From Oscillospiraceae bacterium (GTDB lineage: Bacteria; Bacillota; Clostridia; Oscillospirales; Ruminococcaceae), in assembly GCA_021199795.1 (NCBI GenBank), contig JAJQHJ010000004.1:1-64000 (forward strand): a stretch of DNA of 64,000 nucleotides, read 5' to 3'. The position numbers and the translations under genes are program-made. Positions 155 through 15,792 of this stretch are shown one piece after another (within the stretch, counting starts at the first letter, position 1; each line of letters starts with the position of its first letter). Below the pieces are notes generated by a model. The model had not been told where the DNA came from and did not search any database. It was given only the letters and a program-made list of their open reading frames with translations.

Positions 155-159
155 GTTTA

Positions 160-1303: not shown

Positions 1304-1338
1304 TGGGGACCTCCTTATCTCATGCTAGTTATACGTTT

Positions 1339-2007: not shown

Positions 2008-2008
2008 A

Positions 2009-2110: not shown

Positions 2111-2219
2111 TTTGGTCTCCTTAAACAAACTGCCGCCCGACGCAGAAAAACCGGTCGAGCGGCAACTTCAAATCAAATTCTCAAATCGATTCGTCGATTT
2201 TCGATTCATCGATTTCGAC

Positions 2220-2471: not shown

Positions 2472-2570
2472 CTTTTGCCCTCCAATCTGATAGAAATAGC
2501 ATTCTAAGAGATTATAACACGTCCTGAAAGAAAATGCAATAGGTTGATGGAGAAATTTTTGTGGAAATGC

Positions 2571-2748
2571 TCGCCCTACGGGCTCGCGAACCTCTCAGTC
2601 GCCTACGGCGACAGCTCCCCTTAAAAAAGGGGAGCCAATAGTGCTCGTAAAAAGGCTCCCCTTGATAAGGGGAGCTGGCTGTGCCGCAGGCACAGACTGA
2701 GAGGTGCCGCGACCAAAGGGAGCGGCGTCGCCGGCAAAGCCGGCGACA
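2571..2748. repeat. Two modular hairpin repeats in opposite orientation
   Basis: Half A (2571-2636, minus orientation) and half B (2653-2748, plus orientation) share the frame GGCTCCCC-loop-GGGGAGC, then a variable hairpin, then CTGAGAGGT. Half B continues with GCCGCGACCAAAGGGAGCGG and a second variable hairpin (GTCGCCGGC-AAA-GCCGGCGAC). Half B matches the copy at 21433-21521 closely except in the hairpin stems, which differ but still pair. It fills the gap between secG and glgP, and no reading frame fits. It is noncoding and probably mobile or structural. I recall similar repeats in related Clostridia but cannot name the family. Confidence 0.8.
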
Positions 2749-2763
2749 ATTCCGCATTCCGAA

Positions 2764-5175
2764 TTACTTTGAAAGTCCCCAGATGTTCTTTGCGTACTCG
2801 TCAACCGAGCGGTCGGCGGAGAATCTGCCGGCGTTGGCTATGTTCATGAGAGACATTCTCTGCCATCTGAGCTGATCCTGATAGATCTTTGAAGCCTCTG
2901 CCTGTGCGCTTCTGTATGACTCGAAGTCAGCAAGAACCATGTACGGGTCGGAGTACTTGTAGGAGGAGACGACATCGTCGAAATGGTTGCCGTTGATTCC
3001 AGCCGCAACTCTGTCAACAGCCGCCTTGATGACGGGATCGCAGTTGTAGAGCTGCTCAGGACGATAGCCCTGATGCTTGAGATTCTCAACCTCATCAACG
3101 GTCATACCAAAGTTGATGATGTTGTCAGCCCCTGCTGCCTCGCCGATTTCGATGTTTGTTCCGTCCTTGGTGCCAAGAGTTACCGCACCGTTGAGCATGA
3201 ACTTCATGTTTCCGGTTCCGCTAGCCTCGGTTCCTGCAAGAGAAATCTGCTCGGAAACCTCAGAAGCAGGCATCAGAAGCTCGGAAAGGGTTACGTTATA
3301 GTTCTCAAGGAACACAACAGAGAGCTTCTCGTGAATCTTCGGGTTCTTCTTTATCTCTTCGCCCAGCGACCAAATGAGCTTGATGATCTGCTTTGCAAGA
3401 TAGTAGCCAGGAGCTGCCTTTGCTGCAAAGATATAGGTCTTCGGCTGGACATCGAGGTCGGGGTTCTCAAGAAGTCTGTTATACTCTGAAACGATGTTGA
3501 GAACGTTCAGATGCTGTCTCTTGTATTCGTGAAGTCTCTTTACCTGAACGTCAAAGAGGGTGTCAGGATTGATGACTATGCCGGTGTCAGCCTTGATCTT
3601 CTTGACGAAGCTAGCCTTGTTCTTCTTCTTGACTTCTGCAAGTCTATTGAGGACTTCTTCATCATCAGCAAACTTCTCAAACTTCTTGAGTTGATTTGCA
3701 TCCTTGAGGTAGCCCTTGCCGATGGTGTCGTCAAGGAGCTTGCAGAGCTCGGGGTTAGACTGATAGAGCCATCTGCGGTAGGCTATACCGTTGGTGACGT
3801 TGGTGAACTTCTCGGGGGTGTTCTCATATTCGTTTGCGAAGACATCGCGCTTGATTATCTCGGAGTGAATCTGGGAAACGCCGTTTACATGGTGGCAGAC
3901 TGCAACGCAGAGCTTAGCCATGTGAGCCTTGTTGTTCTGGATGATAGACATTGAGGTGACCTTCTGGTGGTCGTGATACTTCTCCCAGAGGTCTGCGCAA
4001 TAGCGGTTGTTTATCTCAACAATGATGGAGAAGATTCTCGGGATAACAGTCTTGAGAAGATCGCTGTCCCACTTTTCAAGAGCCTCAGCCATAACCGTGT
4101 GGTTGGTATAAGCGAAGCAGCCCTGAACGATTCTGTAAGCATCGTCCCAGGAATATCCGCAGTCATCGAGAAGAATTCTCATGAGCTCAGGAATAGCGAG
4201 AGTCGGGTGGGTGTCGTTTATCTGGATGGCGACCTTATCTGCAAGATTATCAAGTGTTCCATAGGTAGCCATGTGGTGGTTTACGATATCGGCAACCGAA
4301 GCGGCACACATGAAGTACTGCTGACGAAGCCTTAGCGACTTGCCATCATTATGGTTGTCGTTAGGATACAAAACCTTGGAAATAGCCTGTGCTGTGATAT
4401 TCTGTCCGAGTGCGGCGGCATAGTTGCCGGAGTTGAACTTGTTCATATCGAACGACGGGCTGATTGCTTTCCAGAGTCTGAGCTTTGAAACAGCATCGCT
4501 GTCGTAGCCGGAGACATAGAGGTCATACGGCTCAGCGATAACGGTTGTATAGTTTTCGAGATTTACGTGGTGATACTGATTATCCCAGTATTCCTTGAGG
4601 ACACCGTCGAAGTGAACCTCGATCTGGGATTCGGAATGCTCAACCAGCCAGCACTTGCCGCCGGGGAGCCAGTTGTCGGGGAGTTCATCCTGCCAGCCGT
4701 TTTCGAGCTTCTGGCGGAAGATTCCATACTCATAAAGAATCGAATATCCGGTTGCCGGATAGCCGTCAGTTGCCAAGCCGTCGAGATAGCAGGCAGCGAG
4801 TCTTCCCAAGCCGCCATTGCCGAGACCTGCATCCGGCTCCTGATCGTAGATAGATTCAAGGTTTGCGCCCAAATCCTTGAGTGCGCCCTGAGCTGCCTTG
4901 ACCATTCCCAGGTTGTAGAGATTGGTCTTAAGCGACCTGCCCATCAGGAATTCCATTGAAATATAGTAAACCTGCTTTTTGCCCTCTGAATGAACCTTTG
5001 TAGTGTACTTGTGACGCTTGTCAGAAAGCTCTCTTGTGATGATGAAAGCGAGTGCTTCATAGAGCTGCTTGTCAGAAGCCAGCTCAGGAGAAATACCATA
5101 CTTCACATCGAGGATATTGATTAATTCCTCTTTAAGACCATCCTTTGTATAACGCTTGTTAATAACCTTTGGCAA
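2764..5175 (-). CDS. glgP: Glycogen/maltodextrin phosphorylase
   Basis: A GT35 phosphorylase that uses phosphate to release glucose-1-phosphate from alpha-1,4-glucans in the cytoplasm. At 803 residues it has normal bacterial length. The family signature EASGTGNMKFMLNG contains the pyridoxal-phosphate lysine (about K658). The N-terminal substrate region GLGNGGLGRLAACYLD and the INDTHPTLAIPELMR segment are intact. It stands alone, with a repeat cluster immediately downstream and about 130 nt before the phage-derived cassette upstream. The start follows GGAGGGATAATTTTGCC, a good ribosome site. It would supply glucose-1-phosphate from stored glycogen or imported dextrins. Confidence 0.96.
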   Translation of the reverse strand: MPKVINKRYTKDGLKEELINILDVKYGISPELASDKQLYEALAFIITRELSDKRHKYTTKVHSEGKKQVYYISMEFLMGRSLKTNLYNLGMVKAAQGALKDLGANLESIYDQEPDAGLGNGGLGRLAACYLDGLATDGYPATGYSILYEYGIFRQKLENGWQDELPDNWLPGGKCWLVEHSESQIEVHFDGVLKEYWDNQYHHVNLENYTTVIAEPYDLYVSGYDSDAVSKLRLWKAISPSFDMNKFNSGNYAAALGQNITAQAISKVLYPNDNHNDGKSLRLRQQYFMCAASVADIVNHHMATYGTLDNLADKVAIQINDTHPTLAIPELMRILLDDCGYSWDDAYRIVQGCFAYTNHTVMAEALEKWDSDLLKTVIPRIFSIIVEINNRYCADLWEKYHDHQKVTSMSIIQNNKAHMAKLCVAVCHHVNGVSQIHSEIIKRDVFANEYENTPEKFTNVTNGIAYRRWLYQSNPELCKLLDDTIGKGYLKDANQLKKFEKFADDEEVLNRLAEVKKKNKASFVKKIKADTGIVINPDTLFDVQVKRLHEYKRQHLNVLNIVSEYNRLLENPDLDVQPKTYIFAAKAAPGYYLAKQIIKLIWSLGEEIKKNPKIHEKLSVVFLENYNVTLSELLMPASEVSEQISLAGTEASGTGNMKFMLNGAVTLGTKDGTNIEIGEAAGADNIINFGMTVDEVENLKHQGYRPEQLYNCDPVIKAAVDRVAAGINGNHFDDVVSSYKYSDPYMVLADFESYRSAQAEASKIYQDQLRWQRMSLMNIANAGRFSADRSVDEYAKNIWGLSK

Positions 5176-5308
5176 AATTATCCCTCCAAATGATAGATTT
5201 CAATAGCCGAACGGTAAACGAAAGCCCATAAGCCCCGTTCCCTTTGTTGATTCTAAGCCATATAGTAACCTTGCTTATTATAATACATCAAACGGGGAAT
5301 GTCAATAG

Positions 5309-5950
5309 TTATTTTAGAAGAGTGTTCAACCCTTTACCCTCAATAATCTTCCGATAGTCCTTATAAGCAATATCCTGATCCAGCCTCGACGGATAAACCC
5401 CATCGATCACCTCGGAGGAGGAGTATTGCCAGATGCCCAAGATCGGGTTCTGGTAGAGGACTTTTCTTCGCTCCAGACTTGTATAGCACGCCAACCACAC
5501 ATCGAAATGCTTGAGCCTATCCATATCGAGATAATTCTTGATGAAATTCGCATAAGAATATAGCATGGCATAACAGCCGGCGTCCTCGATTTCGGTTAAG
5601 AACCTCAGTGCAATGTCGGTGCACTTCTCTCTGCCCAGGGCTTTCTGAGTGCTGTTCTCGATGTCATATACTATCGGATGTGTTAGCTTCTTGCCCTTGA
5701 TCCAGGAAAGCATAAGTCTCGCTTCTTCTGAAGCTTCATCCTCTGTTGTGGCGTAGCTGTAGAGATATGCACCCACGGATAAGCCTGCGACTCTTGCTTT
5801 TGAATAGTGTTTGTCGAATGCAGAATCCTTTGCTTTCAGGCTTCCGGCTTTAGCCATAACGAAAGTGTAACCCAGGTCTTTAAGAGCCCCATAGTTCATC
5901 TTCGATGGCGACTGGTACTTTGAAACGTCTATGCCTTTGTATTCGCTCAT
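5309..5950 (-). CDS. GH25 muramidase, phage-type endolysin
   Basis: A lysozyme of glycoside hydrolase family 25, which cuts the MurNAc-GlcNAc bond of peptidoglycan. The 213-residue protein is a single GH25 barrel beginning KGIDVSKYQ (D8) with the catalytic acid pair DIE at D96 and E98. It ends with the usual IWQYSS segment. It has no signal peptide and no wall-binding repeats, as expected for an endolysin released through holins. Its ATG overlaps the stop of the upstream gene by four bases (ATGA), so it is the last gene of the phage-derived operon. The catalytic residues look intact. Confidence 0.9.
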   Translation of the reverse strand: MSEYKGIDVSKYQSPSKMNYGALKDLGYTFVMAKAGSLKAKDSAFDKHYSKARVAGLSVGAYLYSYATTEDEASEEARLMLSWIKGKKLTHPIVYDIENSTQKALGREKCTDIALRFLTEIEDAGCYAMLYSYANFIKNYLDMDRLKHFDVWLACYTSLERRKVLYQNPILGIWQYSSSEVIDGVYPSRLDQDIAYKDYRKIIEGKGLNTLLK

Positions 5951-6198
5951 TTAAAATCCTCCTGTTCGTCTTTATTGTCTTTTTCAGAGCTTGTAATCTG
6001 TTTTGAAATGGTTATCGCCGCCGTGAGGATTCCCTCAATCCCGCCACATCCCATGACGCATGTGATGAGGGTATCCGGAACGGCGTCCTTTATATAAAAT
6101 GTCACAATCATCGCTATTGTGAATAGTCCCATGAAGCCTCCCAGAATGATTAGTATTTTGTCTATCGTTCCGAGAGGCTTTTTATCATGCTTTTTCAT
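5947..6198 (-). CDS. Small membrane protein, holin candidate
   Basis: An 83-residue protein with a basic N-terminus (MKKHDKK), two hydrophobic helices at about 14-35 and 42-62, and a very acidic, charged C-terminal tail. This size, topology and position directly before the GH25 lysin fit a phage holin, which would form the membrane lesion that releases the lysin. I do not recognise a specific holin family, so the role is inferred from context. It overlaps the lysin gene by four bases and starts 9 nt after the preceding gene, with AGGA before the ATG. Confidence 0.6.
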   Translation of the reverse strand: MKKHDKKPLGTIDKILIILGGFMGLFTIAMIVTFYIKDAVPDTLITCVMGCGGIEGILTAAITISKQITSSEKDNKDEQEDFK

Positions 6199-6207
6199 CT
6201 TATATTC

Positions 6208-6468
6208 CTATCTGTGCGCCTGCTGGTTGAGATACTTGTCGAGCTTGTCCTTGGCAGTTGTCACAGTGTGATTTGCTCCAAGCTGTCCCAAGCCATCAAG
6301 GCAAGCCGAAAGTGCGAAGCAGATGAGAGTGTTCTCTTCCTTGATTCTGAGTATTTCCGCCGCCTGCTTCTTCTGGCTTAAGTACCACTTCACAACAGAG
6401 ACCATGGCTCCTGCCGCAACAGTCAGTGCCGAGATTACCGACGCAGTTTTTATGATTGTATCAGCCAT
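6208..6468 (-). CDS. Small phage membrane protein, holin or antiholin candidate
   Basis: An 86-residue protein with one or two hydrophobic segments at the N-terminus (about 5-28) followed by a charged helical region with KKQAAEILRIKEE. It is preceded by AAGGAGGG right before the ATG. Together with the next gene it makes a pair of small membrane proteins before the lysin, which is common in phage lysis cassettes. A role as a second holin component is inference from position; a structural spacer protein is also possible. Confidence 0.5.
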   Translation of the reverse strand: MADTIIKTASVISALTVAAGAMVSVVKWYLSQKKQAAEILRIKEENTLICFALSACLDGLGQLGANHTVTTAKDKLDKYLNQQAHR

Positions 6469-6477
6469 TTTCCCTCC

Positions 6478-7521
6478 TTAATCGTCGGTAGGTGACGGAG
6501 CGTTGAGCTTTAGCTTCGACCATAGTCCGTCAGAATCAAAATGAATAGTCTGCGATGTCAGGGTGAACTCACCTACCTCGCTTCCATCCGGCTTCAGGAC
6601 AAGCACCCTGTCGCCCGGTTCAAGAGCTGGATTGCACCTTGTTTTCAGTGTTAACTCAAACCGCTGGTTCTGGGATGCAAAATACAGCTCAGCTATAAAC
6701 ATTGCAAGTGCAGAATCGATAAAATCGTTTTCAAGATACTCCGCAAGACAGCCCTGTGTGTATTTTCCGGATGAGGAGACGAATTCTCCCTCCGAGTTTT
6801 CTCCCGTAATTTCGATGTAGTCGACATGGTCTCCGAGCTTCAAGCCCGAATACTCGAGAATTTCGTCCGGAGATATGGTTGCCGAATAGCCTGTTCTCCC
6901 TGCGATTCTCTCAAAGTGAACCGTTCCATCACGAGCCACCCAAACAGAGGCAAATCCCGCCGCCTGAGCTAAAGTAAGAAGACAATTTCGCTGAGAGTCG
7001 AGAGTCGTCAGCATGTTCGGGCAGACGGTGTAGTCAAGCGTGGTGTCGTCGCAATAGACGTCCAGCCCATAAAGGGCACCAGAGGCATAGGTTAAAAGAA
7101 AAGACATCGACACCGAAGAGCTGGAGTAGAGCCCGGTCATATACTTGTCCATATATGTCTTGACCCTGTCGGATGCCTCAATTTCAACTGTCAGCCCAAG
7201 ATCCCCGGTGTCTATCTCGTCGATATAATACTTTCCAACCGAAATATACTCGCCATTGATTCCGATAAGCACTTCAAACCGAGCACCCACGTAGTCAGTC
7301 TTCTCTGATGCAAACGAAAGACCCAAGCTGTCTATAGCTTTAAGCTTAAGTGAACGGGACGGGAAGCTGTCGCAGGTGACATCGAGGCTCTCCGTCAACT
7401 CCATGCTGATTACATCCCCGGTTCCAAGGCTCATCCCCTCATAGTCACCCAAAAAATCTATCTTGATTCCGACTTCCCTTACCGGGCTGGCGGGATCGTA
7501 TTCACTTGTGTATTCCTGCAT
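6478..7521 (-). CDS. Phage structural protein, hub or baseplate-like
   Basis: A 347-residue soluble protein rich in beta-type sequence. The order (a YISVGKYYIDEID strand region, EIEASDRVKTYMDKY, then a C-terminal barrel-like part ending in TLTSQTIHFDSDGLW) resembles tail-hub or baseplate proteins that form beta-barrel rings at the end of a phage tail. This is a fold-level impression, not a firm family match. The ATG at 7521 follows the previous stop with no gap (TAA-ATG), and GGGAGTGGAA provides the ribosome site. It is the largest gene downstream of the capsid, so it is probably the main adhesion or DNA-delivery component if particles form. Confidence 0.55.
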   Translation of the reverse strand: MQEYTSEYDPASPVREVGIKIDFLGDYEGMSLGTGDVISMELTESLDVTCDSFPSRSLKLKAIDSLGLSFASEKTDYVGARFEVLIGINGEYISVGKYYIDEIDTGDLGLTVEIEASDRVKTYMDKYMTGLYSSSSVSMSFLLTYASGALYGLDVYCDDTTLDYTVCPNMLTTLDSQRNCLLTLAQAAGFASVWVARDGTVHFERIAGRTGYSATISPDEILEYSGLKLGDHVDYIEITGENSEGEFVSSSGKYTQGCLAEYLENDFIDSALAMFIAELYFASQNQRFELTLKTRCNPALEPGDRVLVLKPDGSEVGEFTLTSQTIHFDSDGLWSKLKLNAPSPTDD

Positions 7522-8205
7522 TTATTCCACTCCCTTTCCCGTCGCAGTTATGCTGACTGCACACCAGGTGCAGACTCCGTCGTCATCATATTCTGTTGCT
7601 TCAAGCTTCGGAATGTCAAACAGCATATCCATTGTCACGCTTTCTGAAATATCCGGATAGGTAACACAGAGAAATGGCGAGCTTTCAATCATGCCGACCA
7701 ATGCAACTGCCTCTTCCCTTGGAAGCGTAATGTCGCTTACACTGAGTGTCACCTTGCTTCCGATTATGTCAAGAACCGTGCTGCCGTCAGATGCAGTGGC
7801 GGAGCTTCCGATACGTGCTCTGGAAACGGAATAGTCAGTCCCAAGAGGCAGAATAACAGTCGAGCTCCCATCCGTGATGATAAGAGAACCGGAAACCGAG
7901 GTTGAGCTGTTATAGTCTTCAACAGAAAACTGCCGGAACGAGAATGTAGCCATTTCAGGCGACTCTCCCGTGTCCTCACCGGTTATCTGAAAGGTTTCGC
8001 TGCCGGAAACCCTCCTGAATATGTCGCCATAATTTAGATCCACCTCAGGCGAAACGGTGAGTGTGCACTTTCTTACTAGTCCTGAATCTTCTTCCGTAGA
8101 GTTGTCAAAAATCAGCGCGCCCTTGAATGTCTCGCCCTCTGTGAAGCCATCCACTGCTATCGCAAGCTTCAGAAATTCTTCTGAAAAGATATCTATAAGC
8201 CCCAT
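7522..8205 (-). CDS. Phage structural protein of unknown role
   Basis: A 227-residue acidic protein starting MGLIDIFSEEFLK, with Ser/Thr-rich beta-type sequence throughout and no membrane segment. The frame is open for five more codons upstream. The ATG at 8205 is preferred because it overlaps the previous stop as TAATG and sits six bases after GGAGGA. It is enclosed by connector-like and hub-like genes, so it is likely a particle component such as a tail or neck protein. I do not recognise the family. All codons are intact and it keeps tight spacing with both neighbours. Confidence 0.55.
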   Translation of the reverse strand: MGLIDIFSEEFLKLAIAVDGFTEGETFKGALIFDNSTEEDSGLVRKCTLTVSPEVDLNYGDIFRRVSGSETFQITGEDTGESPEMATFSFRQFSVEDYNSSTSVSGSLIITDGSSTVILPLGTDYSVSRARIGSSATASDGSTVLDIIGSKVTLSVSDITLPREEAVALVGMIESSPFLCVTYPDISESVTMDMLFDIPKLEATEYDDDGVCTWCAVSITATGKGVE

Positions 8206-8606
8206 TATATCTTCCTCCACTGATTGAGCCTCGATGCAAAGACTTTCTGCCAGTTGTTTGCCTCCGTGTCCTCAAGCTCATAGGAATATCCGCCGAAGCT
8301 CTCTTTCTTATAAGGCGACGGCGACGCCATGTCGGACGCCATATAGGTCTCAATCTCCTCGCACAGTGCCAGAAAATCCTCAGGAGGATTCATAAGTGCG
8401 ATATCGCCGCTGAACTCCTCGTCTGTAAGCACGTCATCCGGATAGAGGTGCACAGCATCGTTATATTTGCTTCCCCAGATGAGATAATAGCCATCGCGCA
8501 TGAAGTCGGCATCTGTAACCGCTCCTCCGGAAATAGTGAACTCCCCTGCATGAACCTCCGAGATAAAGTAGTTTTTTATATGCCTGCAAACAGTTTCAAT
8601 AATCAC
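8205..8606 (-). CDS. Head-tail connector-like phage protein
   Basis: A 133-residue protein located directly after the major capsid gene, where phages usually encode head-completion or adaptor proteins. The start is GTG with AAAGGAG and six bases of spacing. It has an N-terminal helix, a mixed middle and a C-terminal helical part ending NQWRKI, a size and layout similar to gp6-like connectors. The assignment is positional. Its stop codon overlaps the ATG of the next gene (TAATG), so the two are translationally coupled. Confidence 0.5.
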   Translation of the reverse strand: MIIETVCRHIKNYFISEVHAGEFTISGGAVTDADFMRDGYYLIWGSKYNDAVHLYPDDVLTDEEFSGDIALMNPPEDFLALCEEIETYMASDMASPSPYKKESFGGYSYELEDTEANNWQKVFASRLNQWRKI

Positions 8607-8667
8607 GCTTTTCTCCTTTCATTCCCTTTCCGGGTGGGGATTTCTCCCCACCCATGAACCTACATTA

Positions 8668-9504
8668 TCACACAGTGCAATTGAGCACTGCAATCTGTGT
8701 CGGGTCGATGACCTTTATGCCATAGACATGAAGACCCTTGACGGCATCCGCAAACTTCTTTTCAGGGCGGTAAGCGGTGGTTTCGAGAATCTGCTCAGCA
8801 TAGGTGCAAGCAGACGGAACCTGTGCTGTGATGCAGTAGACGTCGCCGTTCATATAGCAGTTATTCGACTCATAGATGTCAAAGCCGGCAATTCTTCCGA
8901 TGAATCCACTTCTCGAAGTCTCCTCGCCCATCATGCCGGAGCCGGTGAATCTCGAATCCTGCAAAAGGAGTGCGTAGACATCGGGAGGCAGGACTATGCT
9001 TCTTCCCTCATGCGGAACGTTGTTCTTGTCGAGGATAAGCCGGAGCTGGACAATGTAGCCATAGACATTGTCAGCCGTGAGCGCAATAGGGCTGCCCGCA
9101 CCGATGACATTGTCGGAGCTTGCATTGGATGCAAGGTTTTCAAGGATATAGGCGTCAGCAATGTCATTGAGTGCATAGGCACTCTTCTGCATAGCCTTGT
9201 CCATGATATCTCCTGCCGCCTGAGCCGCATCCACGTCATCAATCTGGAAGTTGAAATACTTCGCCTGATCGATTTCGAGTGTGGTGTCGCTGAGATTCAG
9301 ATCCTCAGGATCTACGATTTCAGAGCCCTTTTCATAGTCCGAAACGGTGATGTCGCCTATAGTGTTGATGTGAACTGCCGAGCCGCACTGCTTGATTTCG
9401 CCATCATAGTCGTGATTCACGATACTTCCCGCAACGTGAGCCTTTTCAAGAGCAGCCAGAAGTCTTGCACTCCAGAGCTCGGGTATAAATGTGCTTAATG
9501 CCAT
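8668..9504 (-). CDS. Major capsid protein, P22 coat-like
   Basis: A 278-residue protein starting MALSTFIPELWSARLLAAL, a typical opening for P22-type coat proteins with the HK97 fold. The family pattern ENLASNASSDNVIGAG and VPHEGRSIVLPPDVYALLL also fits, as do the GFDIYESNN and AILNC-type terminal strands. It follows the scaffold gene by 24 nt, the usual scaffold-capsid order. No separate protease gene is present, which suits P22 or SPP1-type maturation without cleavage. It would form the shell of the particle. Confidence 0.85.
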   Translation of the reverse strand: MALSTFIPELWSARLLAALEKAHVAGSIVNHDYDGEIKQCGSAVHINTIGDITVSDYEKGSEIVDPEDLNLSDTTLEIDQAKYFNFQIDDVDAAQAAGDIMDKAMQKSAYALNDIADAYILENLASNASSDNVIGAGSPIALTADNVYGYIVQLRLILDKNNVPHEGRSIVLPPDVYALLLQDSRFTGSGMMGEETSRSGFIGRIAGFDIYESNNCYMNGDVYCITAQVPSACTYAEQILETTAYRPEKKFADAVKGLHVYGIKVIDPTQIAVLNCTV

Positions 9505-9528
9505 GATTTTTATTTTCCTTTCTTTTTA

Positions 9529-10077
9529 TCAGTCGGTTGTCACTCCAAGCGACTGTTTTATCGCCTGGTAGTTTTCGTTGATCTCATGGGAAGACATTCT
9601 TCTTATGTCCTCTCTTGAGTAGCCTTTGTCGGATGAATTTGCGGGAGGCGAAGCCGTCTCTGCGCCGTAAAGATATCTCCTCGGAATAAATCCCGAGTAA
9701 AGATCACTTAAGCCGCTTCTGACCGCATCTTCATCAAGAAGTCTTCCATCCTCCGAAATCTCAAGCTTTTCAAAATCCGTGACATGTAAAATAGAGTTCA
9801 CACATCCCTCCGGGATGTGAAGTTCCCTTAACATTTCAGTCACTGCCTGCCTTTTAGCCTGCATCGACTTCTCCATGTCAAGTGCCTCGAATTTTGTCTG
9901 ATACTCCGCAAGCGAATTCTTAGCGTTATCAAGCTCACCTACCAAGCCGGCAAGTCTCTCATTTTCAGCTCTATAGCCCTTGAGAGCCTCAACAGTCTCG
10001 GCATGAGCCTTGATAATCTCCTCCGCATTCTCATCCGTAATGCCCATTTCTCTGAGCATCTTTCTTGTTAATGCCAT
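9529..10077 (-). CDS. Phage scaffold protein, GP20 type
   Basis: A 182-residue, mostly coiled-coil protein (about residues 20-85 rich in Glu, Lys, Ala and Leu) resembling phage minor structural protein GP20, an internal scaffold needed to assemble the procapsid. The frame extends upstream to 10230, but those residues are Arg/Lys-rich without family character. The ATG at 10077 begins MALTRKMLREMGI, as in GP20 proteins, and has AAAGGAAAG five bases before it. It lies between portal and capsid genes, its normal place. Confidence 0.8.
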   Translation of the reverse strand: MALTRKMLREMGITDENAEEIIKAHAETVEALKGYRAENERLAGLVGELDNAKNSLAEYQTKFEALDMEKSMQAKRQAVTEMLRELHIPEGCVNSILHVTDFEKLEISEDGRLLDEDAVRSGLSDLYSGFIPRRYLYGAETASPPANSSDKGYSREDIRRMSSHEINENYQAIKQSLGVTTD

Positions 10078-10114
10078 TTTTCTTTCCTTTCTTGTGTAAC
10101 TTCCTCTACACAAT

Positions 10115-11404
10115 TTATATGCCCAGTGCTTCCGCACAGAGAGCCTTGATTGTTTCATCGTCGAACAAGCCTCGAAGTAGCAAAGCCGTTTCGGCTCTTT
10201 CCCTTTCCGTCTGCGCCTTTTCATACTCATTGACGATGGTGTCCCGCTTGAAAGTGCAGGTGTCCTCTACTCCCAATAGATTCAGCAGCCCGTGGACAAA
10301 TTTGAGAACCGCATATTCAAGCATGTTTGAATACAGGTTCATCGGCTCATATGCCGCCTTGATTGCCGTTGCGGTTGAATTACCGCCCGAAACGGTGTCA
10401 AGATTCAGAACCATGAAGTCGCGGTACATTTCGTTTTCAAGACGGGTGAGCATTGCCTCCCGGCTTTCATAGGGAATCTCGGTTGTGTGAGACTCAGCCT
10501 GCGCACCGTCGTCCTCGATCACTGCCGCCCTGACTGTCTTCATGTGCTCGATGAACTTGGCAAGGTCGATGTCGTCCATACCGCCGGCATTTGAGATTGT
10601 CCAGTATATCATCGAAGCGTCGTCAATGTCGTTTGCAAAGCCCGATTCGATGAGGTCGTAGCAGTCAATCTGCCGCCTTAGCCCAACAATCCCCGACTGC
10701 TTTCTCGGAGAGTAGAGCGGCACAATAGGCAGCCTCTCATAGTTCTCTTCAATCAGCGAATCATCCTGATATTCAGACCTGATAACTATCTGCTTATAAG
10801 CCCTTTTCGGCTTCATGACAGTGAGCTCCTCTCCACGTCTGCGGATATATTCGGTGTAGCCGTCAATCTCGTAGAGGGTGAGCCTCAGCGGCTTGTCAAT
10901 ATCCAGCTGCCAGAACCTGATTCCGGCTTTCAGCTCGCCTGTCTCCTCATCATAAAGCGGCACAAACTCCTCCGCTCCGAACACCTCAACTCTGTCATGG
11001 TTCATAAATCCATAGGAAACCCCGCCGTTCAGAGCATCGGTCAAAGCCTCCTGCAATGCATGATCAAAGCTATTGCCGCCAAGAAGCTTCTTCGTGTCAG
11101 AGTTTTCAAACCTCGCGCCGTACCCAAGAAGATACTGCACCGTCTGTGTGACGAACCGGAAGTAGACGTTTGAAGCCAGCCGGAAGTTCGCCGAGTAGTT
11201 GTCCGGAACAGCTCTTCCCGAAACGGTGTAGAGTAGCTTCCGGTATTTCGTGATGGTCGGGTTTTCGTTTCGCCAGTAGGCGAGGGCATCGAGTGTGTCG
11301 CGGTAGGTTTTCGATGTCTTATAGTCCGCGACAGCACTCTTCAAAAAGCCCTCAAGCTCATGTTCCCCTTTCTTTGCCTTTTCCAGATCCTGATAGGTAT
11401 ACAC
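10115..11404 (-). CDS. Phage portal protein, SPP1 gp6 type
   Basis: The portal forms the ring at one capsid vertex through which DNA is packaged and released. The 429-residue sequence fits the SPP1 gp6 family: a variable N-terminus, VKFVTQTVQYLLGYG-like wing region, the pattern IDCYDLIESGFANDIDDAS, and a long helical stem region with ESREAMLTRLENEMYRDF and the SGGNSTATAIKAAYEPM segment. The start is GTG at 11404, 19 nt after the terminase stop, with AAAGGGG upstream at slightly long spacing. No interruptions are visible. Confidence 0.88.
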   Translation of the reverse strand: MYTYQDLEKAKKGEHELEGFLKSAVADYKTSKTYRDTLDALAYWRNENPTITKYRKLLYTVSGRAVPDNYSANFRLASNVYFRFVTQTVQYLLGYGARFENSDTKKLLGGNSFDHALQEALTDALNGGVSYGFMNHDRVEVFGAEEFVPLYDEETGELKAGIRFWQLDIDKPLRLTLYEIDGYTEYIRRRGEELTVMKPKRAYKQIVIRSEYQDDSLIEENYERLPIVPLYSPRKQSGIVGLRRQIDCYDLIESGFANDIDDASMIYWTISNAGGMDDIDLAKFIEHMKTVRAAVIEDDGAQAESHTTEIPYESREAMLTRLENEMYRDFMVLNLDTVSGGNSTATAIKAAYEPMNLYSNMLEYAVLKFVHGLLNLLGVEDTCTFKRDTIVNEYEKAQTERERAETALLLRGLFDDETIKALCAEALGI

Positions 11405-11423
11405 TTATATAATTTCCCCTTTC

Positions 11424-12644
11424 CTAGAGTAGCCTGAGCCCCGAGAGCTCAGCCTCATTTCTTTTCTTTGCCAATATTGTCGACGAGAAGTATCTTATCT
11501 CGTCCATCGCATGGTCATTCTCTTTTACAACCCTGTCGTTTCCGGACTTGTCGTCCCAACGGTAGAGCGAGAATTCCCGGAGAGCGTTCTTGCAGCTTCG
11601 GTGAATCTTAAGCTTCCCGGATTTTAAGAACCCAGCCGTAAGACGGATGCCGTTCATGACGTCGTTGTCGGCTTTTTTAACTCGAAACTTTCCTTTCTTT
11701 CTGATAAGAATGATGAAGCTCGATGCCGACGGGTCGACTATCACGTTTCTCACGGGAAGATCTCCCGCCAATGCCTCAAGAGCAAGGTAGTAGTCCTCGT
11801 CGGTGAGCTGCTTTTTCTCAGCTCTGCCGTCGTAATAGTACTCCGCTATTCTCGTAGCAACGCCGTTTGAAACGCACCACAGTCCCATCGAACAGGGATT
11901 CATAGTCCCATAGTCGCAGGAAATGTAGTATTCGCCGTGGGTTGGAATCTCGTCCGTGATGTAGTCTTCGCTCATTTCGTAAACCAGTCCCTCCGCCAAG
12001 ACCCATCTTCCCTCGATATATCTTTCATAGAAAGCACCCGAGTAGTAGCTCTTGTAGCGGTCGATGATGCGTTTTGAAAGTGACGGGTTGTCCTCCAATC
12101 TGAAATGCAGATAGAGGGCGTTTCTTTCGTCCGCTTTCAGAATCCACTCCCGGTAGAACCAGTGCTCCGGCGACTCGGGGTTGCAGGAAAACCACAGCTT
12201 CGAGCCCTCAACCGAACACCTCGCCACCGCCTGAGAAACAAACGACTTCGGCATCAGTGCCACCTCGTCGATAAGCGCACCGGCAAATGTTCTTCCCTGA
12301 ATCAGAATGAAGCTTGACTCATCCTTGCCGCCGAAAAACTCGAAAACGTTCCTGACACTGCCCTGGGAGACCTCCATCACCTTTGAGGACGGCTTCCACT
12401 TGATGCGGTATTTCTTGTTTGAATAGCTCATCGACATGAACGGAAGTATAATGTTCTTCACAGCACCGTCGGCTGTCTTCCCGCAGATTCCGAACCGCTG
12501 ACCGGAAAAGTTCGCCATCGCCCAGTCGACAAATGCAACCGTCATGACGGAAGTTTTTCCGGAACGGATCGCGCCGTCGCAGATGAGTGCGTCGTAGTCC
12601 GACTCCGCAAACGCGAAAATCTTTTTCTGCTTCTCACTGAGCAA
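11424..12644 (-). CDS. Phage terminase large subunit
   Basis: The packaging motor: an ATPase that pumps DNA into the capsid, plus a nuclease that cuts it. The Walker A motif is GAIRSGKT (residues 24-31 of the chosen protein) and Walker B is ALIDEVALM. The C-terminal nuclease keeps its acidic residues in SCDYGTMNP, IVDPSAS and NDHAMDEIRY. The family is PBSX/SPP1-like. A TTG at 12644 is preferred as start: it sits five bases after AAGGGGTGGG, beyond the stop of the upstream gene. The ATG 18 codons upstream would overlap that gene and adds no conserved sequence. All catalytic residues look intact. Confidence 0.88.
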   Translation of the reverse strand: MLSEKQKKIFAFAESDYDALICDGAIRSGKTSVMTVAFVDWAMANFSGQRFGICGKTADGAVKNIILPFMSMSYSNKKYRIKWKPSSKVMEVSQGSVRNVFEFFGGKDESSFILIQGRTFAGALIDEVALMPKSFVSQAVARCSVEGSKLWFSCNPESPEHWFYREWILKADERNALYLHFRLEDNPSLSKRIIDRYKSYYSGAFYERYIEGRWVLAEGLVYEMSEDYITDEIPTHGEYYISCDYGTMNPCSMGLWCVSNGVATRIAEYYYDGRAEKKQLTDEDYYLALEALAGDLPVRNVIVDPSASSFIILIRKKGKFRVKKADNDVMNGIRLTAGFLKSGKLKIHRSCKNALREFSLYRWDDKSGNDRVVKENDHAMDEIRYFSSTILAKKRNEAELSGLRLL

Positions 12645-12657
12645 TCTCCCACCCCTT

Positions 12658-12924
12658 TCACTGCGGCTTGTCGCTCTTGAGATCCTTAATAAGCTCAAAA
12701 ATGCTCTTGCTCAAGGGATCGTCCGCCGTGCTGTCAGCCTCAGATTCTGTCAGGAAGCTATCCGACAAGGACGAAATCGCACCCGTCAGCTGTGAAACGC
12801 TTGCATCCTTAAGCTTTTCCTCATCATTGAGAATCTCAAGGCACTTTTCTATGATTTCGTTTGCCCTGAGCCTGTTAAAATCACAACTATCCTGCTTACC
12901 CAAATTCATCCCTCCGAATTTCAT
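12658..12924 (-). CDS. Small protein before terminase, possible small terminase subunit
   Basis: An 88-residue acidic protein with helical stretches (NRLRANEIIEKCLEILNDEEKLKD and SKSIFELIKDLKSD). Its position directly before the large terminase fits a small terminase subunit that recognises DNA, but it lacks a clear helix-turn-helix and is short for that role. A regulatory protein is also possible. The start is uncertain: ATG at 12924 has no ribosome site, ATG at 12909 lies directly against GGAGGG, and a TTG at 12903 has ideal spacing. A 34-codon leader frame ends here at 12896. Confidence 0.5.
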   Translation of the reverse strand: MKFGGMNLGKQDSCDFNRLRANEIIEKCLEILNDEEKLKDASVSQLTGAISSLSDSFLTESEADSTADDPLSKSIFELIKDLKSDKPQ

Positions 12925-13000
12925 ATATTTCTAAAAAAAGTACTTGACATTTCGGAGAAAGCTTGATATAATACAGTTGTGTGTTTTTGATAACATTCAT
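12896..13000 (-). CDS. Possible 34-codon leader peptide of the phage cassette
   Basis: A short frame starting MNVIKNTQLYY and ending RRDEFG. It has GGAG ten bases before the ATG at 13000, and its stop overlaps the start region of the next gene. That layout suits a translated leader that feeds ribosomes into the first cassette gene. The peptide has no recognised motif and the frame may be fortuitous, so confidence is low. Confidence 0.25.
   Translation of the reverse strand: MNVIKNTQLYYIKLSPKCQVLFLEIYEIRRDEFG
12944..12972 (+). promoter_or_regulatory. Consensus promoter pointing away from the phage cassette
   Basis: TTGACA (12944-12949), 17 nt, TATAAT (12967-12972): a perfect sigma-A promoter on the plus strand. 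No protein gene follows before the RelB-like gene at 13530. The RNA would run antisense to the start of the cassette transcript and toward tRNA-Ser. Confidence 0.6.
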
Positions 13001-13154
13001 ATTTTTATTTCTCCTTTTTCCTTTTCCAATCTTTGAAACAAAGTCGTCCTCCGGGGCGGCTTTGTTCATTCTGTAGGTTTGTCCACCGGAAGAGCTTTTC
13101 TCTCGCAAAGCCGCCTTAAAGAAACTTGTGTTCTGAACTTTTGTTCTGTATTTT

Positions 13155-13182
13155 ATGATACTCCGGATTTCCCGTTTGTCAA
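13155..13182 (-). promoter_or_regulatory. Probable promoter of the phage cassette
   Basis: On the minus strand TTGACA (13182-13177), 16 nt, TATCAT (13160-13155). It is the only good minus-strand promoter upstream of the terminase genes and lies just after a terminator that would block read-through. The early transcript contains the palindrome GAAC-AAAA-GTTC, a possible operator. Confidence 0.5.
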
Positions 13183-13193
13183 CCCCAAATTTC

Positions 13194-13235
13194 AAAAAAA
13201 AATCTCCCGCAGTCCTAATTTCCGGACTCCGGGAG
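13194..13235 (-). terminator. Rho-independent terminator insulating the phage cassette
   Basis: On the minus strand a 12-bp stem with one mismatch (CTCCCGGAGTCC with GGACTGCGGGAG) is followed by A and nine T residues. It would stop any minus transcription arriving from the right before the cassette promoter. Confidence 0.7.
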
Positions 13236-13264
13236 GAAAAGCAAATAAATTTGTGAAAAAGGTC

Positions 13265-13293
13265 TTGACATCGAGCTGAAAATAGCGTATAAT
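13265..13293 (+). promoter_or_regulatory. Promoter of tRNA-Ser
   Basis: TTGACA (13265-13270), 17 nt, TATAAT (13288-13293) on the plus strand, about 36 nt before the tRNA. Both boxes match the consensus perfectly. Confidence 0.85.
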
Positions 13294-13328
13294 GTCATAG
13301 TTCGCAAGCGAACAGATAAACTAAGCAT

Positions 13329-13421
13329 GGAGAAGTCGCCTAGCCCGGTTTATGGCGCACGACTGGAACTCGTGTATGGGTTGATAGCTCATCGAGGGTT
13401 CGAATCCCTCCTTCTCCGCCA
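13329..13421 (+). tRNA. tRNA-Ser (GGA)
   Basis: A 93-nt tRNA with the long variable arm of the serine class, acceptor arm GGAGAAG, T arm GAGGGTTCGAATCCCTC and an encoded GCCA end. The anticodon loop reads CTGGAAC, giving GGA. It has its own promoter and terminator. Confidence 0.95.
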
Positions 13422-13425
13422 AATA

Positions 13426-13452
13426 AGAGCCTTGAAATAGGGCTCTTTTTGT
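13426..13452 (+). terminator. Terminator of tRNA-Ser
   Basis: A stem AGAGCC / GGGCTCT with loop TTGAAATA is followed by TTTTTGTTTT, immediately after the tRNA. Confidence 0.8.
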
Positions 13453-13460
13453 TTTCACTA

Positions 13461-13503
13461 TTGACATCACTCAACGCATATGCTATAATGTATGTGTAAC
13501 ACA
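13461..13503 (+). promoter_or_regulatory. Promoter and likely operator of the toxin-antitoxin operon
   Basis: TTGACA (13461-13466), 17 nt, TATAAT (13484-13489). Right after the -10 box lies the palindrome TGTGTAACACA (13493-13503). Antitoxins of the RelB type usually repress their own promoter through such a site, so this is the likely operator; that role is inferred. Confidence 0.75.
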
Positions 13504-13529
13504 TTGTAATACAGAAAGGAGACACCATT

Positions 13530-13748
13530 ATGACTTTTTCCATCCGTTTGTCCGAAAGTGAAAAAAATCTGGCTGAAAGCTATGCCAGACTCCACAGCGT
13601 TTCTATGGGTGAAGCTTTCAAGCGCGCACTTTTCGAGAAGATTGAAGACGAGTACGACGTGGTTGTCGCCGAGGAAGCTTATTCTGAGTATCAGAAAGAC
13701 CCGAAGACCTATACTCTTGATGAGGTCAGAAAGAGCCTCGGTATATGA
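13530..13748 (+). CDS. RelB/DinJ-like antitoxin
   Basis: A 72-residue protein beginning MTFSIRLSESEKNLAESYA, a ribbon-helix-helix DNA-binding start, followed by SMGEAFKRALFEKIED and a flexible acidic C-terminal part ending TLDEVRKSLGI. This is the usual plan of a RelB-type antitoxin: N-terminal dimerising DNA-binding domain, C-terminal toxin-binding tail. It precedes a RelE-like toxin with a four-base ATGA overlap and follows a strong promoter with a palindromic operator. AGAAAGGAG precedes the ATG. It should neutralise the toxin and repress the operon. Confidence 0.88.
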   Translation: MTFSIRLSESEKNLAESYARLHSVSMGEAFKRALFEKIEDEYDVVVAEEAYSEYQKDPKTYTLDEVRKSLGI

Positions 13749-14011
13749 AGTACTCAGTAGCTTTTTCAAAGCGAGCTCGTAAGGAGCTCGGGAACTTAGA
13801 CAAGTACACCCAGAAGATGATAGTAAACTGGATTGAGAAGAATCTCGACGGCTGCGAAGATCCGCACGCCCACGGCAAGGCTCTGACAGGCGACCTTAAG
13901 GGCATCTGGCGATATCGCATTGGCGACTACCGCCTTTTGTGCGACATAAACGAAAGTGAGCTCGTCATCCTCGCCCTCAGCATTGGTCACCGAAGAGAAG
14001 TTTACAGATAG
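13745..14011 (+). CDS. RelE/ParE-superfamily toxin
   Basis: An 88-residue basic protein with the RelE fold pattern: YSVAFSKRARKELGNLDK at the start, then GKALTGDLKGIWRYRIGDYRLLCDI and the terminal strand ILALSIGHRREVY. RelE toxins cut mRNA in the ribosome A site. The late Arg and Tyr residues (R78 region, GHRREVY) match the catalytic end of this family. It overlaps the antitoxin gene by four bases. Length is normal and no key segment is missing, so the module appears functional. Confidence 0.88.
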   Translation: MKYSVAFSKRARKELGNLDKYTQKMIVNWIEKNLDGCEDPHAHGKALTGDLKGIWRYRIGDYRLLCDINESELVILALSIGHRREVYR

Positions 14012-14020
14012 GAGCATAAC

Positions 14021-14533
14021 ATGAAAACCCTCATAGTAATAGACATGCAAAACGACTTCATCGATGGTGCCTTGGGCACTGCTGAGGCGGTCGCTATTGT
14101 CCCGAACGTCAAAAAGAAAGTTTCGGAATATCTCGCTTCCGGCGGGGCGGTCATCTACACCCGCGACACCCACACACTCGATTATCTCTCCACTCAGGAG
14201 GGCAAAAACCTGCCTGTTGTCCACTGTGTCAAGGGCACTCCCGGCTGGGAGATTGCGGATGGAATATATGCAGGCGGCTCAACGGTCGTTGACAAGCCCT
14301 CTTTCGGCTCAACTGAGCTTCCAAAGGTGCTTTCGGAAATCAAGGATCTTGAGTCAATAGAGCTCATCGGTCTCTGCACCGACATCTGCGTCATCTCGAA
14401 CGCAATGATCCTGAAAGCCGCTTTCCCGGAGATTCCGATAACTGTTGACTCATCCTGCTGTGCCGGCGTAAGCCCAGAAAGTCATGAAAACGCCCTCAAG
14501 GCGATGGCGGTCTGCCAGATTAATATTGCATAA
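14021..14533 (+). CDS. Nicotinamidase/isochorismatase-family cysteine hydrolase
   Basis: A 170-residue cytoplasmic hydrolase with the intact catalytic triad D8 (VIDMQNDF), K92 (VDKPSFGS) and C123 (CTDICV), including the usual cis-peptide region before the cysteine. Nicotinamidases convert nicotinamide to nicotinate for NAD salvage. The TRDTHTLDY segment, with Asp and His candidates for metal binding, favours a nicotinamidase-like substrate, but related enzymes use other amides. It starts nine bases after the toxin stop with TAGGAG before the ATG and no promoter between. It is therefore probably co-transcribed with the toxin-antitoxin genes, an unusual pairing. A terminator follows at 14540. 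Confidence 0.85.
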   Translation: MKTLIVIDMQNDFIDGALGTAEAVAIVPNVKKKVSEYLASGGAVIYTRDTHTLDYLSTQEGKNLPVVHCVKGTPGWEIADGIYAGGSTVVDKPSFGSTELPKVLSEIKDLESIELIGLCTDICVISNAMILKAAFPEIPITVDSSCCAGVSPESHENALKAMAVCQINIA

Positions 14534-14539
14534 GAAAAG

Positions 14540-14575
14540 CCCGTGCCGGTCAACTGCCTGCACGGGATATTTTTG
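14540..14575. terminator. Bidirectional terminator between convergent genes
   Basis: The stem CCCGTGC (14540-14546) / GCACGGG (14560-14566) is followed on plus by ATATTTTTG and on minus by CTTTTCTT. It ends the amidohydrolase operon. The minus-strand membrane protein gene at 14550 even encodes its last residues within the hairpin. Confidence 0.75.
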
Positions 14576-15176
14576 TCATAAGAAACCTGATTGTAATCAC
14601 GAGAACCAGCGCATACATCGCCCCGCTCGTGATGGCGGACAACGTCAGCATACTTTCAGCACCGCCATTCACCATGATTAGCGTGTTCTGCAGCGACAGC
14701 ACCGACACTATAGCATCAATAAGGCTTATCGCCCTCAGCTCCGAGATTAAGATATTTCCCGAGAGCTTTTTCTTTTTGCTCCCGAAATTCACCGACGCCA
14801 TGATTATCTTGTATGTGGTATACGCCGCCATCGCGATTGCCGGAATCTTACTCATCGTGACCGGCTTCTCGAACATCACCATGAGAGCAATCGGGCAGAT
14901 GAGGGCAATATTGAGGAGCAAGAGAAAGCACGAACTTATCCGGAATGTCCGGATCCTTGCCCTGTTTTTTCGCTCAGAGAGAAGAATTATCCCGCGAATC
15001 AAAGCCAGCAGTATATAGTAAATTGCAATGCTTCCATGCCAGAGTGACAGCGAAGCTATCCCCAGATAGCCGTTATACACAGCAAACAGCACGGTTATCC
15101 CAAGTGACAGCCATGCCCCAGAAAAAGTCCTGAATTCATAGTCAGTGCGGTATCTCTCAATGAAACTATTTCCCAT
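14550..15176 (-). CDS. Multi-pass membrane protein of unknown function
   Basis: A 208-residue protein with about five or six hydrophobic helices and short charged loops (SERKNRARIRTFR and GSKKKKLSG). I do not recognise the family. The ATG at 15176 is chosen because GGAG lies seven bases upstream and the codon overlaps the end of the TetR gene by 11 nt; an upstream ATG at 15206 lacks support. The overlap and order suggest that the TetR regulator controls this membrane protein, perhaps a transporter-like or stress protein. The last codons fall in the shared terminator at 14540-14575. Confidence 0.65.
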   Translation of the reverse strand: MGNSFIERYRTDYEFRTFSGAWLSLGITVLFAVYNGYLGIASLSLWHGSIAIYYILLALIRGIILLSERKNRARIRTFRISSCFLLLLNIALICPIALMVMFEKPVTMSKIPAIAMAAYTTYKIIMASVNFGSKKKKLSGNILISELRAISLIDAIVSVLSLQNTLIMVNGGAESMLTLSAITSGAMYALVLVITIRFLMTKISRAGS

Positions 15177-15762
15177 ACCCAATCTCCGGACGCACGCATT
15201 CTTCAATGACAGTGCATATCATTTCAACCGAATCCTTGCAGTCTTCTGCCAGCCAGCGTCTTATTATCGCCATGACTCCGTTGATATAGTAGTCGATAAA
15301 GTACCTCTGCTGCTCAGCCGGGATGCTGAACCGGGACATAATTGGCTTAAGTATATACTTTTTCATGTACTCAAACTTCACATCTGCCTGAATCCCGCTC
15401 GGGTTCCGGAACGATGCACGGTAGATGGATTTATTGTCCCTGATAAATTCGAGATAGGGCTTAAGATACTTTTCGGTAATGAGGACGAGCTCCGGGAGCT
15501 CCTTGTTCTGGATATTCCCGACAAAGCTCTCGCCACTTTCGGAAAAGCAAGCCTGAAATTTTGAGTCCATCATTTCAACCGTCTCGTTCACGAGGTCGCC
15601 GATATTCTCATAGTGAAGATAGAATGTCGACCGGTTAACTCCTGCTCTCTCACAAATCTCCTTTACGGTGATGAATTCCAAATCCTTTCGCTCAAGAAGC
15701 AGAAGCAACGCCTCGTCCATCAAAAGGGCAGTGTTAAAGTATTTACTTTCTGATTTGTTCAT
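15166..15762 (-). CDS. TetR-family transcriptional regulator
   Basis: A 198-residue repressor-type protein. The N-terminal helix-turn-helix is typical: FITVKEICERAGVNRSTFYLHYENIGDLV (residues about 30-58). The C-terminal helical domain (YLEFIRDNKSIYRASFRN, YYINGVMAIIRRWLAEDCK) matches the DhaS-like TetR subgroup found in Firmicutes. It sits between two membrane-protein genes on the same strand, overlapping the downstream one, so it probably regulates this small operon. The ligand is unknown. Confidence 0.9.
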   Translation of the reverse strand: MNKSESKYFNTALLMDEALLLLLERKDLEFITVKEICERAGVNRSTFYLHYENIGDLVNETVEMMDSKFQACFSESGESFVGNIQNKELPELVLITEKYLKPYLEFIRDNKSIYRASFRNPSGIQADVKFEYMKKYILKPIMSRFSIPAEQQRYFIDYYINGVMAIIRRWLAEDCKDSVEMICTVIEECVRPEIGYGK

Positions 15763-15792
15763 CTTGCCACCGCCCTTTCCAGACGTCCTTGA

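Follow-up and report, generated by a model that had tools for sequence, protein, structure and literature searches.

The eleven phage-like genes at positions 5309–12924 of a 64,000-nucleotide stretch of DNA from an Oscillospiraceae bacterium (Clostridia; Oscillospirales; Ruminococcaceae; assembly GCA_021199795.1, contig JAJQHJ010000004.1, positions 1–64,000; hereafter the window) are best explained as a domesticated, vertically inherited, SOS-controlled gene transfer agent (GTA) of siphophage origin that carries a stub in place of a tail. We assign this explanation a probability of about 0.7; it is favored by the inheritance of the cassette in the host clade, by purifying selection on its genes, and by reductive changes in the direction of a GTA. 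An original prediction, made from the DNA of the window before any comparison with other genomes, had listed a domesticated particle kept by selection among several options. The comparison with related genomes now provides good support for a domesticated particle.

Inheritance in the host clade

Among 60 relatives, the identity of the large terminase subunit (TerL) falls into distinct tiers: 89–92% in ten genomes that together with the window form group A (11 genomes), 66–71% in the five genomes of group B (G008, G012, G013, G022, and G024), and at most 55% elsewhere. The capsid protein is present in 16 of 31 genomes of the host's genus, which are exactly the members of groups A and B. All eleven genes occur in the same order in the ten further genomes of group A (the copy in G001 is split over two contigs), which is more than can be attributed to chance. 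TerL homologs of lower identity at five other loci (L196–L200; 50–53%, one from another genus) are not accompanied by a match to any other cassette gene and therefore look like terminases of other phages. The genome from which the window originates contains a single match to the cassette TerL.

The same tiers are mirrored by the neighboring host gene glgP, which was found in 29 of the 31 genomes and shows identities of 94–97% in group A, 77–81% in group B (the value for G022 stems from the longer of its pieces), and 65–76% in the rest. In a midpoint-rooted maximum-likelihood tree of rpoB, which comprises 28 of the 31 genomes (no rpoB was obtained from G022, G007, and G021), the 15 carriers form one clade (support 100/99) without any non-carrier inside; the cassette is absent from the sister genome G026 and from the other 12 genomes in the tree. 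Since the carriers are monophyletic and their sister lacks the cassette, one gain (or one loss) suffices to explain the distribution. A concatenation of seven cassette proteins yields a tree in which groups A and B are separate (100/100) and which recovers two groupings that are present also in the rpoB tree, namely G006, G014, G025, and G030 (100/100 for the cassette, 89/70 for rpoB) and, with modest support, the pair of G009 and G029 (94/74 and 60.6/77, respectively). The rpoB clade and the agreement of the cassette tree indicate that the cassette is vertically inherited in the host clade.

The original prediction had located the cassette between glgP and tRNA-Ser, and the relatives carry it at the same locus. 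In all 11 genomes of group A, the cassette adjoins a tRNA-Ser(GGA) gene in the same relative orientation (13329–13421, plus strand, transcribed away from the cassette; detected with ARAGORN), and in nine of them the lysin side is flanked by glgP (named by eye), of which no copy was found anywhere in G001 and G029. Host genes are present on both flanks: beyond terS, the gene of the small terminase subunit (TerS), follow tRNA-Ser(GGA), a DUF6290/ParE pair, and an isochorismatase gene, and glgP lies on the other side. In group B, tRNA-Ser(GGA) is located near terS in G024 and G012 and about 9 kb away in G022, and the contig of G013 ends before such a gene is reached; in G008, it was not found around the cassette, and a tRNA-Thr gene lies beyond the lysin gene instead.

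Selection and gene integrity

All eleven genes of group A are under purifying selection. The ratios of nonsynonymous to synonymous substitution rates (dN/dS), estimated with the method of Nei and Gojobori for the 55 pairs among the 11 genomes (13–55 usable pairs per gene, with the fewest for the 227-aa and hub-like proteins described below), have medians of 0.033–0.226 per gene. Individual medians are 0.046 for TerL, 0.068 for the portal, 0.07 for the lysin, 0.095 for the connector, 0.13 each for the capsid, the 227-aa protein, and the hub-like protein, and 0.22 for the scaffold; the highest ratio of any single pair is 0.43. Because dS is near saturation for several genes, these values are rough, and close pairs agree with them. 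The neighboring host genes have comparable ratios of 0.042 (glgP, five genomes) and 0.09 (isochorismatase), and the dS of the cassette lies within the range of its neighbors. Apart from the portal gene of G009, every gene of the cassette is open in each of the 11 genomes. Neither neutral evolution nor frequent disruption in sister strains, which the original prediction had named as arguments against its proposal, was encountered: medians of 0.03–0.23 are not neutral, and disruption is rare, with a single frameshift in one portal gene. Together with the conserved locus, these results bear out the notion of a domesticated particle kept by selection.

Gene content of the cassette

The cassette consists of eleven co-directional open reading frames (ORFs) on the minus strand, all of them present and open, which follow each other head to tail from the start of terS at 12924 to the end of the lysin gene at 5309. 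The small terminase-like protein encoded by terS (12658–12924; 88 aa) lacks a helix-turn-helix-like segment and matches no Pfam or PHROG family; it was assigned by its position and because the longer TerS-like proteins of group B and G020 resemble it. It is followed by terL (11424–12698; PF03237, E = 7e-16; phrog_2) and the genes of an SPP1 gp6-like portal (10115–11404; SPP1_portal, PF05133, E = 1e-34; phrog_64), a scaffold (conserved part 9529–10074 of an ORF that reaches 10230; PF06810, E = 1e-5, below the Pfam cut-off; phrog_194), and the major capsid protein (8668–9504; PF25209, E = 1.5e-12; PF19821; phrog_267, E = 1e-74). To judge from sequence conservation, TerL probably starts near 12641 rather than at 12698, and the scaffold probably starts at 10074 rather than at 10230. 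The TerL of the window retains what we take to be the Walker A, Walker B, and nuclease-type motifs, in line with the claim that the catalytic motifs are intact, and the sequence stretch around Walker B, when inspected in groups A and B, has the DE pair in 16 of 16 proteins.

The head genes are followed by a head-completion or connector protein of 133 aa (8205–8606; phrog_1236, head protein, E = 5e-7) and a fusion protein of 227 aa (7522–8205), whose N-terminal half is a stopper-like neck protein (phrog_17977 at residues 26–103) and whose C-terminal half is tail-tip-like by position (phrog_1194 at residues 122–225); both PHROGs are of unknown function. The next protein, of 347 aa, is tail-tip- or hub-like (6478–7521; phrog_13879, of unknown function; phrog_1887, tail protein, E = 2e-7). 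Two small membrane proteins (6208–6468, phrog_1009; 5947–6198, phrog_38777) are called holin-like by position only, because their PHROG matches are all of unknown function, and the cassette ends with a GH25 endolysin (5309–5950; PF01183, E = 1e-30).

Pfam and PHROG searches of the eleven cassette proteins revealed no integrase, repressor, replication, tail-tube, tape-measure, or protease gene; for integration and replication genes, three proteins of the flanks were scanned in addition, and the remaining flanks were judged by eye. The gene set and the families named in the original prediction were thereby confirmed, including the lack of a tail tube, tape measure, and protease among the eleven proteins. 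Since the 347-aa protein is a relative of tail proteins, the cassette represents a head plus a tail stub and not a bare capsid. Sequence searches of solved structures with alignments of the 347-aa and 227-aa proteins yielded no relatives (two chance-level matches and no match, respectively), and among the 75 pattern matches in a scan of viral contigs with the hub profile, none was confirmed.

Reductive changes in neck, tail, and small terminase

The genomes of group B reveal how the neck of the cassette has been simplified. In these genomes, the connector gene is followed by genes for a protein resembling stoppers (assigned to phrog_17977 in both G012 and G024), for a terminator-like protein (PHROG matches are weak), for a tail-tube-like protein (in G012 with a match to phrog_885, major tail protein, at E = 5e-8; the homolog of G024 has no match but is 37% identical to that of G012), and then for a protein resembling the C-terminal half of the 227-aa protein. 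In tblastn searches, the terminator-like gene was detected in all five genomes of group B and the tail-tube gene in four (not in G008); both were found in none of the 11 genomes of group A. In group A, the N-terminal half of the 227-aa protein is matched by the stopper of G012 in 9 of the 11 genomes, and its C-terminal half by the phrog_1194-like proteins in all 11. As these two proteins are encoded by separate genes in four of the five genomes of group B, group A has fused the two and lost the two genes between them. By its gene content, group B is a less reduced form of the cassette. G008 encodes a protein of 252 aa that matches the terminator-like protein with its first half (E = 1e-9) and resembles phrog_1194 with its second half by eye alone, without a family or tblastn match; this looks like a second reduction.

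The small terminase has also been shortened. The TerS of G020 contains a segment of about 50 residues that is absent at exactly this position from the other 10 of the 11 group A proteins, including that of the window. All four readable TerS of group B are longer at the N terminus, where they are alike by eye; tblastn supports a relationship for three of them. The TerS of RcGTA, a GTA of Alphaproteobacteria, is likewise described as lacking a DNA-binding domain, and the loss of this domain has been proposed to cause the non-specific packaging of GTAs (PMC6854486).

Promoter, SOS-type box, and leader

The cassette is preceded by a promoter on the minus strand, TTGACA-N16-TATCAT (13155–13182; 11 of 12 positions in a consensus scan), which is aligned in all 11 genomes of group A. 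Eight nucleotides downstream of its −10 hexamer lies the palindrome GAAC-N4-GTTC (13135–13146; GAACAAAAGTTC when read from 13146 to 13135), a predicted LexA/SOS operator; this motif is among the LexA motifs for which Clostridium difficile has been searched (PMC4234289). The box is conserved in all 15 upstream regions that were read, 11 of 11 in group A and 4 of 4 readable ones in group B. In group A, it occupies the same place and has three different centers, all of which keep the palindrome, and two genomes possess a second, overlapping box. In group B, all boxes are GAACATATGTTC and are located upstream of terS after a −10-like hexamer (by eye), including that of G008, whose cassette resides at another locus.

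The window contains one GAAC-N4-GTTC site compared to 1.2 expected by shuffling, so that it is not the count but the position of the box that is informative. The whole genome has 15 such places, compared to 115 for the reversed control pattern. Two of the boxes are located between the gene of a Y-family DNA polymerase (IMS domain, E = 8e-26), a classical SOS gene, and its divergent neighbor; among the remaining ones, 11 lie inside long ORFs and one is uncertain.

The leader between the operator and terS is conserved as well, with a block of 43 consecutive positions that are invariant in the 11 genomes except for one inserted base in G025. It contains a sigma-70-type promoter on the plus strand that points away from terS (TTGACA-N17-TATAAT, 12944–12972, 12 of 12 consensus positions), whose −35 hexamer is invariant and whose −10 hexamer is intact in 10 of the 11 group A genomes. 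On the same strand, the region 12978–13090 folds with a z-score of −3.97 into a hairpin (13034–13068) that is conserved in the 11 genomes. The leader block is present in one strong copy in each of the 11 group A genomes and in none of the five genomes of group B; elsewhere, there are six short, weak matches in six genomes, two of which are non-carriers. A scan of positions 1–16000 of the window against Rfam detected tRNAs only. The opposing promoter could give rise to an antisense RNA over the terS leader.

Proposed mechanism and alternative explanations

According to the proposed mechanism, DNA damage would lead to the inactivation of LexA, upon which the promoter at 13155–13182 would fire. 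Portal, scaffold, and capsid proteins would assemble into a small head, which TerL and a TerS deprived of its likely sequence-specific DNA-binding segment would fill with any available host DNA. The neck fusion protein and the hub would then seal the head, which would bear a stub where a tail would otherwise be, and the cell would be burst by the membrane proteins and the GH25 lysin. The gene content, the intact motifs, the inheritance in the clade, the purifying selection, the loss of a TerS segment, the gene fusion with loss of the intervening genes, and the conserved operator are seen in the sequences; the formation of particles, random packaging, induction by the SOS response, and delivery to recipients are inferred.

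Several observations weigh against this scenario. The exact GAAC-N4-GTTC box is present at none of 30 recA loci (one of them with only 79 bases upstream) and at one of 30 lexA genes, and the recA promoters of ten group A genomes carry, at a similar place, a different palindrome resembling GGYAC-N4-GTRCC (by eye; imperfect in two). With the box at the cassette promoter and the polymerase gene but no exact box at almost all recA and lexA genes, SOS control of the cassette is likely rather than proven. The N-terminal part of LexA in group A also differs by eye from other LexA proteins of the genus (L393; recA loci L398–L427), which, together with the other palindrome at recA, hints at a possible change of the SOS operator in this clade. 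The match to a helix-turn-helix in the TerS segment of G020 is weak (Pfam, E = 1e-3, below the cut-off), and the TerS of G024 has no Pfam match; because G020 and apparently also group B have retained the segment, a loss of packaging specificity would not be general. The portal gene of G009 has a frameshift near its 5′ end, caused by mutation or by an assembly error. No receptor-binding protein is encoded in the cassette (no search for a second locus was made), and particles, packaged DNA, and transfer are predictions from the genes.

An SOS-type box and a lysin gene would be expected also of a bacteriocin-like or lysis device, whose particles are freed upon DNA damage to bind or kill competitors, as proposed for PBSX, and in which DNA transfer is not selected; a PBSX-like role has been left open also for FpGTA, the GTA of Faecalibacterium prausnitzii (PMC12946183). 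Such a device is unlikely, because TerL is among the most constrained proteins of the cassette (0.046) and has kept its ATPase and nuclease-type motifs, for which killing by a tail would have no need, and because group A has no tube gene and no fiber gene was recognized among the eleven genes. If the domesticated capsid served a purpose of the cell's own, such as the storage or protection of DNA or signaling, and delivered nothing, this would agree with the missing tail-tube gene of group A (none was found either in the differently arranged cassette of G008). The purifying selection on neck and hub (0.095–0.13) and the retention of the lysin render this explanation quite improbable.

Phage-inducible islands that form their own capsids exist as satellites, and head and packaging genes without a tail tube might belong to an element that borrows the tails of a helper phage, particularly as siphoprophages are present in at least two carrier genomes. 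This option of the original prediction fits poorly and is very improbable: the locus is fixed in group A and inheritance in the clade is vertical, neither an integrase nor a replication gene is among the eleven, which does not agree with the mobility of a satellite, the cassette has its own lysin, and the window contains no repeat of the 3′ end of tRNA-Ser, a possible trace of an integrase, besides the tRNA itself. Least probable of all is a decaying prophage whose head and lysis genes were left by chance. Although most phage functions are missing and one portal is frameshifted, the same eleven genes are present in 11 genomes given as separate species, each gene with a dN/dS well below 1, and operator and leader are conserved, so that the original impression that the cassette does not read like a decaying prophage stands. 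Among the options that had been put forward, a GTA fits best.

Comparison with known systems

To our knowledge, few GTAs are known outside Alphaproteobacteria. The closest known system, compared by its description only, is FpGTA of Faecalibacterium (Borodovich et al. 2026), which its authors present as the first GTA from the human gut (PMC12946183). As described there, FpGTA consists of one operon of TerS (without an obvious DNA-binding domain), TerL, portal, scaffold, and capsid genes and a second operon of tail-fiber and lysis genes, has 40-nm heads with 8.4–8.9 kb of DNA, and occurs without replication genes in all twelve Faecalibacterium genomes that its authors examined (PMC12946183). GTA-like packaging of host DNA is reported also for Ruminococcus callidus, CAG-115, and an Oscillospiraceae genus (PMC12946183). 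As far as described, FpGTA shares with the cassette the presence in gut Clostridia, a short operon, lysis genes, and the lack of replication genes; it differs by its two operons and its podovirus-like nature, whereas the cassette has a single operon, an SPP1-type portal, a neck–tail-tip fusion, and an SOS-type box. Because of its SPP1-type portal, the cassette looks like a lineage separate from those that resemble the description of FpGTA.

RcGTA carries a tail of the siphovirus type and is under the control of CtrA and GafA. Like the cassette, RcGTA and its relatives are described as host-inherited clusters of head and packaging genes with a TerS that lacks the N-terminal DNA-binding domain (PMC6854486). 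What sets the cassette apart from them is its LexA-type box and the lack of a tube gene. PBSX of Bacillus subtilis, a particle of prophage origin in a Gram-positive host, responds to DNA damage, packages host DNA, and has a complete tail and tailocin-like activity. It has been named GTA-like (PMC12946183). In contrast to PBSX, no tube gene was found in the cassettes of group A. A search of the literature, mostly at the level of titles and abstracts, found no description of the cassette itself and brought up one gut GTA, FpGTA.

Related phages and other cassettes

Relatives of the neck are encoded by five phages from the same host family (L303–L307), which share with the cassette the order of portal, scaffold, connector, and stopper and possess in addition a tail tube (5 of 5); TerL is present in four of the five, and L305 has a tape-measure-like gene (by eye). 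These phages differ from the cassette in their other head genes, and the cassette capsid, phrog_1194, and the hub are unmatched there (L306 and L307 end soon after the tube). Profiles of the stopper and the tube have relatives in 14 and 15 ORFs, respectively, outside groups A and B; 14 loci contain both, and two of the 15 matches for the tube had themselves been included in its profile. The phrog_1194 and hub profiles found no relatives outside the two groups among the loci then compared. The presence of stopper and tube relatives at such loci indicates that the head and neck of the cassette descend from phages like L303–L307. Complete relatives thus exist as separate, more distant phages; a larger, normal prophage containing the cassette itself would have spoken against the original prediction.

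Two carriers of the cassette also harbor siphoprophages of the HK97 type (G029, L221:8574–10601; G025, L222:9012–11043), each with a truncated scaffold of 104 aa and two tandem capsid genes that are 53–57% identical to the cassette capsid. For the prophage of L222, Pfam identified a portal and a capsid of its own. The tandem copies account for six of 139 loci with capsid matches, all of them stretches of the L221 and L222 prophages, and a scan of viral contigs with one of the prophage capsids revealed relatives of at most 45% identity. These capsid and scaffold copies could act as decoys against the cassette.

When the order was searched with a capsid profile, 124 of 396 genomes gave a match; 27 stretches were fetched, and the ORFs of 12 were inspected. 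Nine of these (families f13, f17, f20, and f21; L317–L319, L321, L327, L328, L331, L332, and L335) are short, podovirus-type capsid cassettes of a different build among host-like genes (by eye); they resemble FpGTA as published, a likeness by description only, and may represent further GTAs. The one portal that was tested (L331) is P22-like (E = 6e-11), and L331 and L332 have GntR-like and ABC-transporter-like neighbors in common. The other three stretches, from genus g225, are more like siphoprophages. A gene order similar to that of FpGTA is present in genus g201, which was considered as Faecalibacterium; a 16S probe matched none of the 14 genomes tried, a result that could also stem from missing 16S genes. 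The portals of genus g103 (about 25% identity) had been considered as possible FpGTA relatives; the three of four fetched loci whose ORFs were read (L299–L301) look by eye like contractile-tail elements with a PBSX-like gene set, and these portals were set aside; the flanking genes of L299 and L300 are identical in kind. The DUF6290 and ParE toxin genes that adjoin tRNA-Ser in the window (13530–14011) are both present in one other genome of group A, G020 (stretches compared), with a partial match to the first gene in G029 and G001.

A broader account of the origin of the cassette is possible but doubtful. GTAs might have arisen several times in this order of Clostridia from different types of phages, and the present lineage might have been caught midway: most of group B has kept neck, terminator, tube, and a longer TerS; in group A, the neck is joined to the tail tip, terminator and tube are gone, and the helix-turn-helix has been lost in most genomes. 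The product would be an almost tail-less, SOS-triggered DNA donor that is held in check twice, by LexA and by an antisense RNA across the leader of terS, and the copies of capsid and truncated scaffold in the prophages of two carriers could poison it.

Implications

In this clade of uncultured gut bacteria, an old virus appears to have been tamed into a small, heritable set of genes that fills shells with DNA and lyses the cell, probably in response to DNA damage. If this is true, these bacteria may pass pieces of their own genome to relatives, and with such an inherited particle under SOS control, gene donation in a clade of gut Clostridia would be coupled directly to DNA damage. The tail tube and the TerS segment are each present in some natural versions of the cassette and absent from others, so that the steps from phage to GTA can be tested by comparing natural proteins. 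The cassette thus constitutes a defined, one-operon candidate for particles containing host DNA, like those reported from related gut families.

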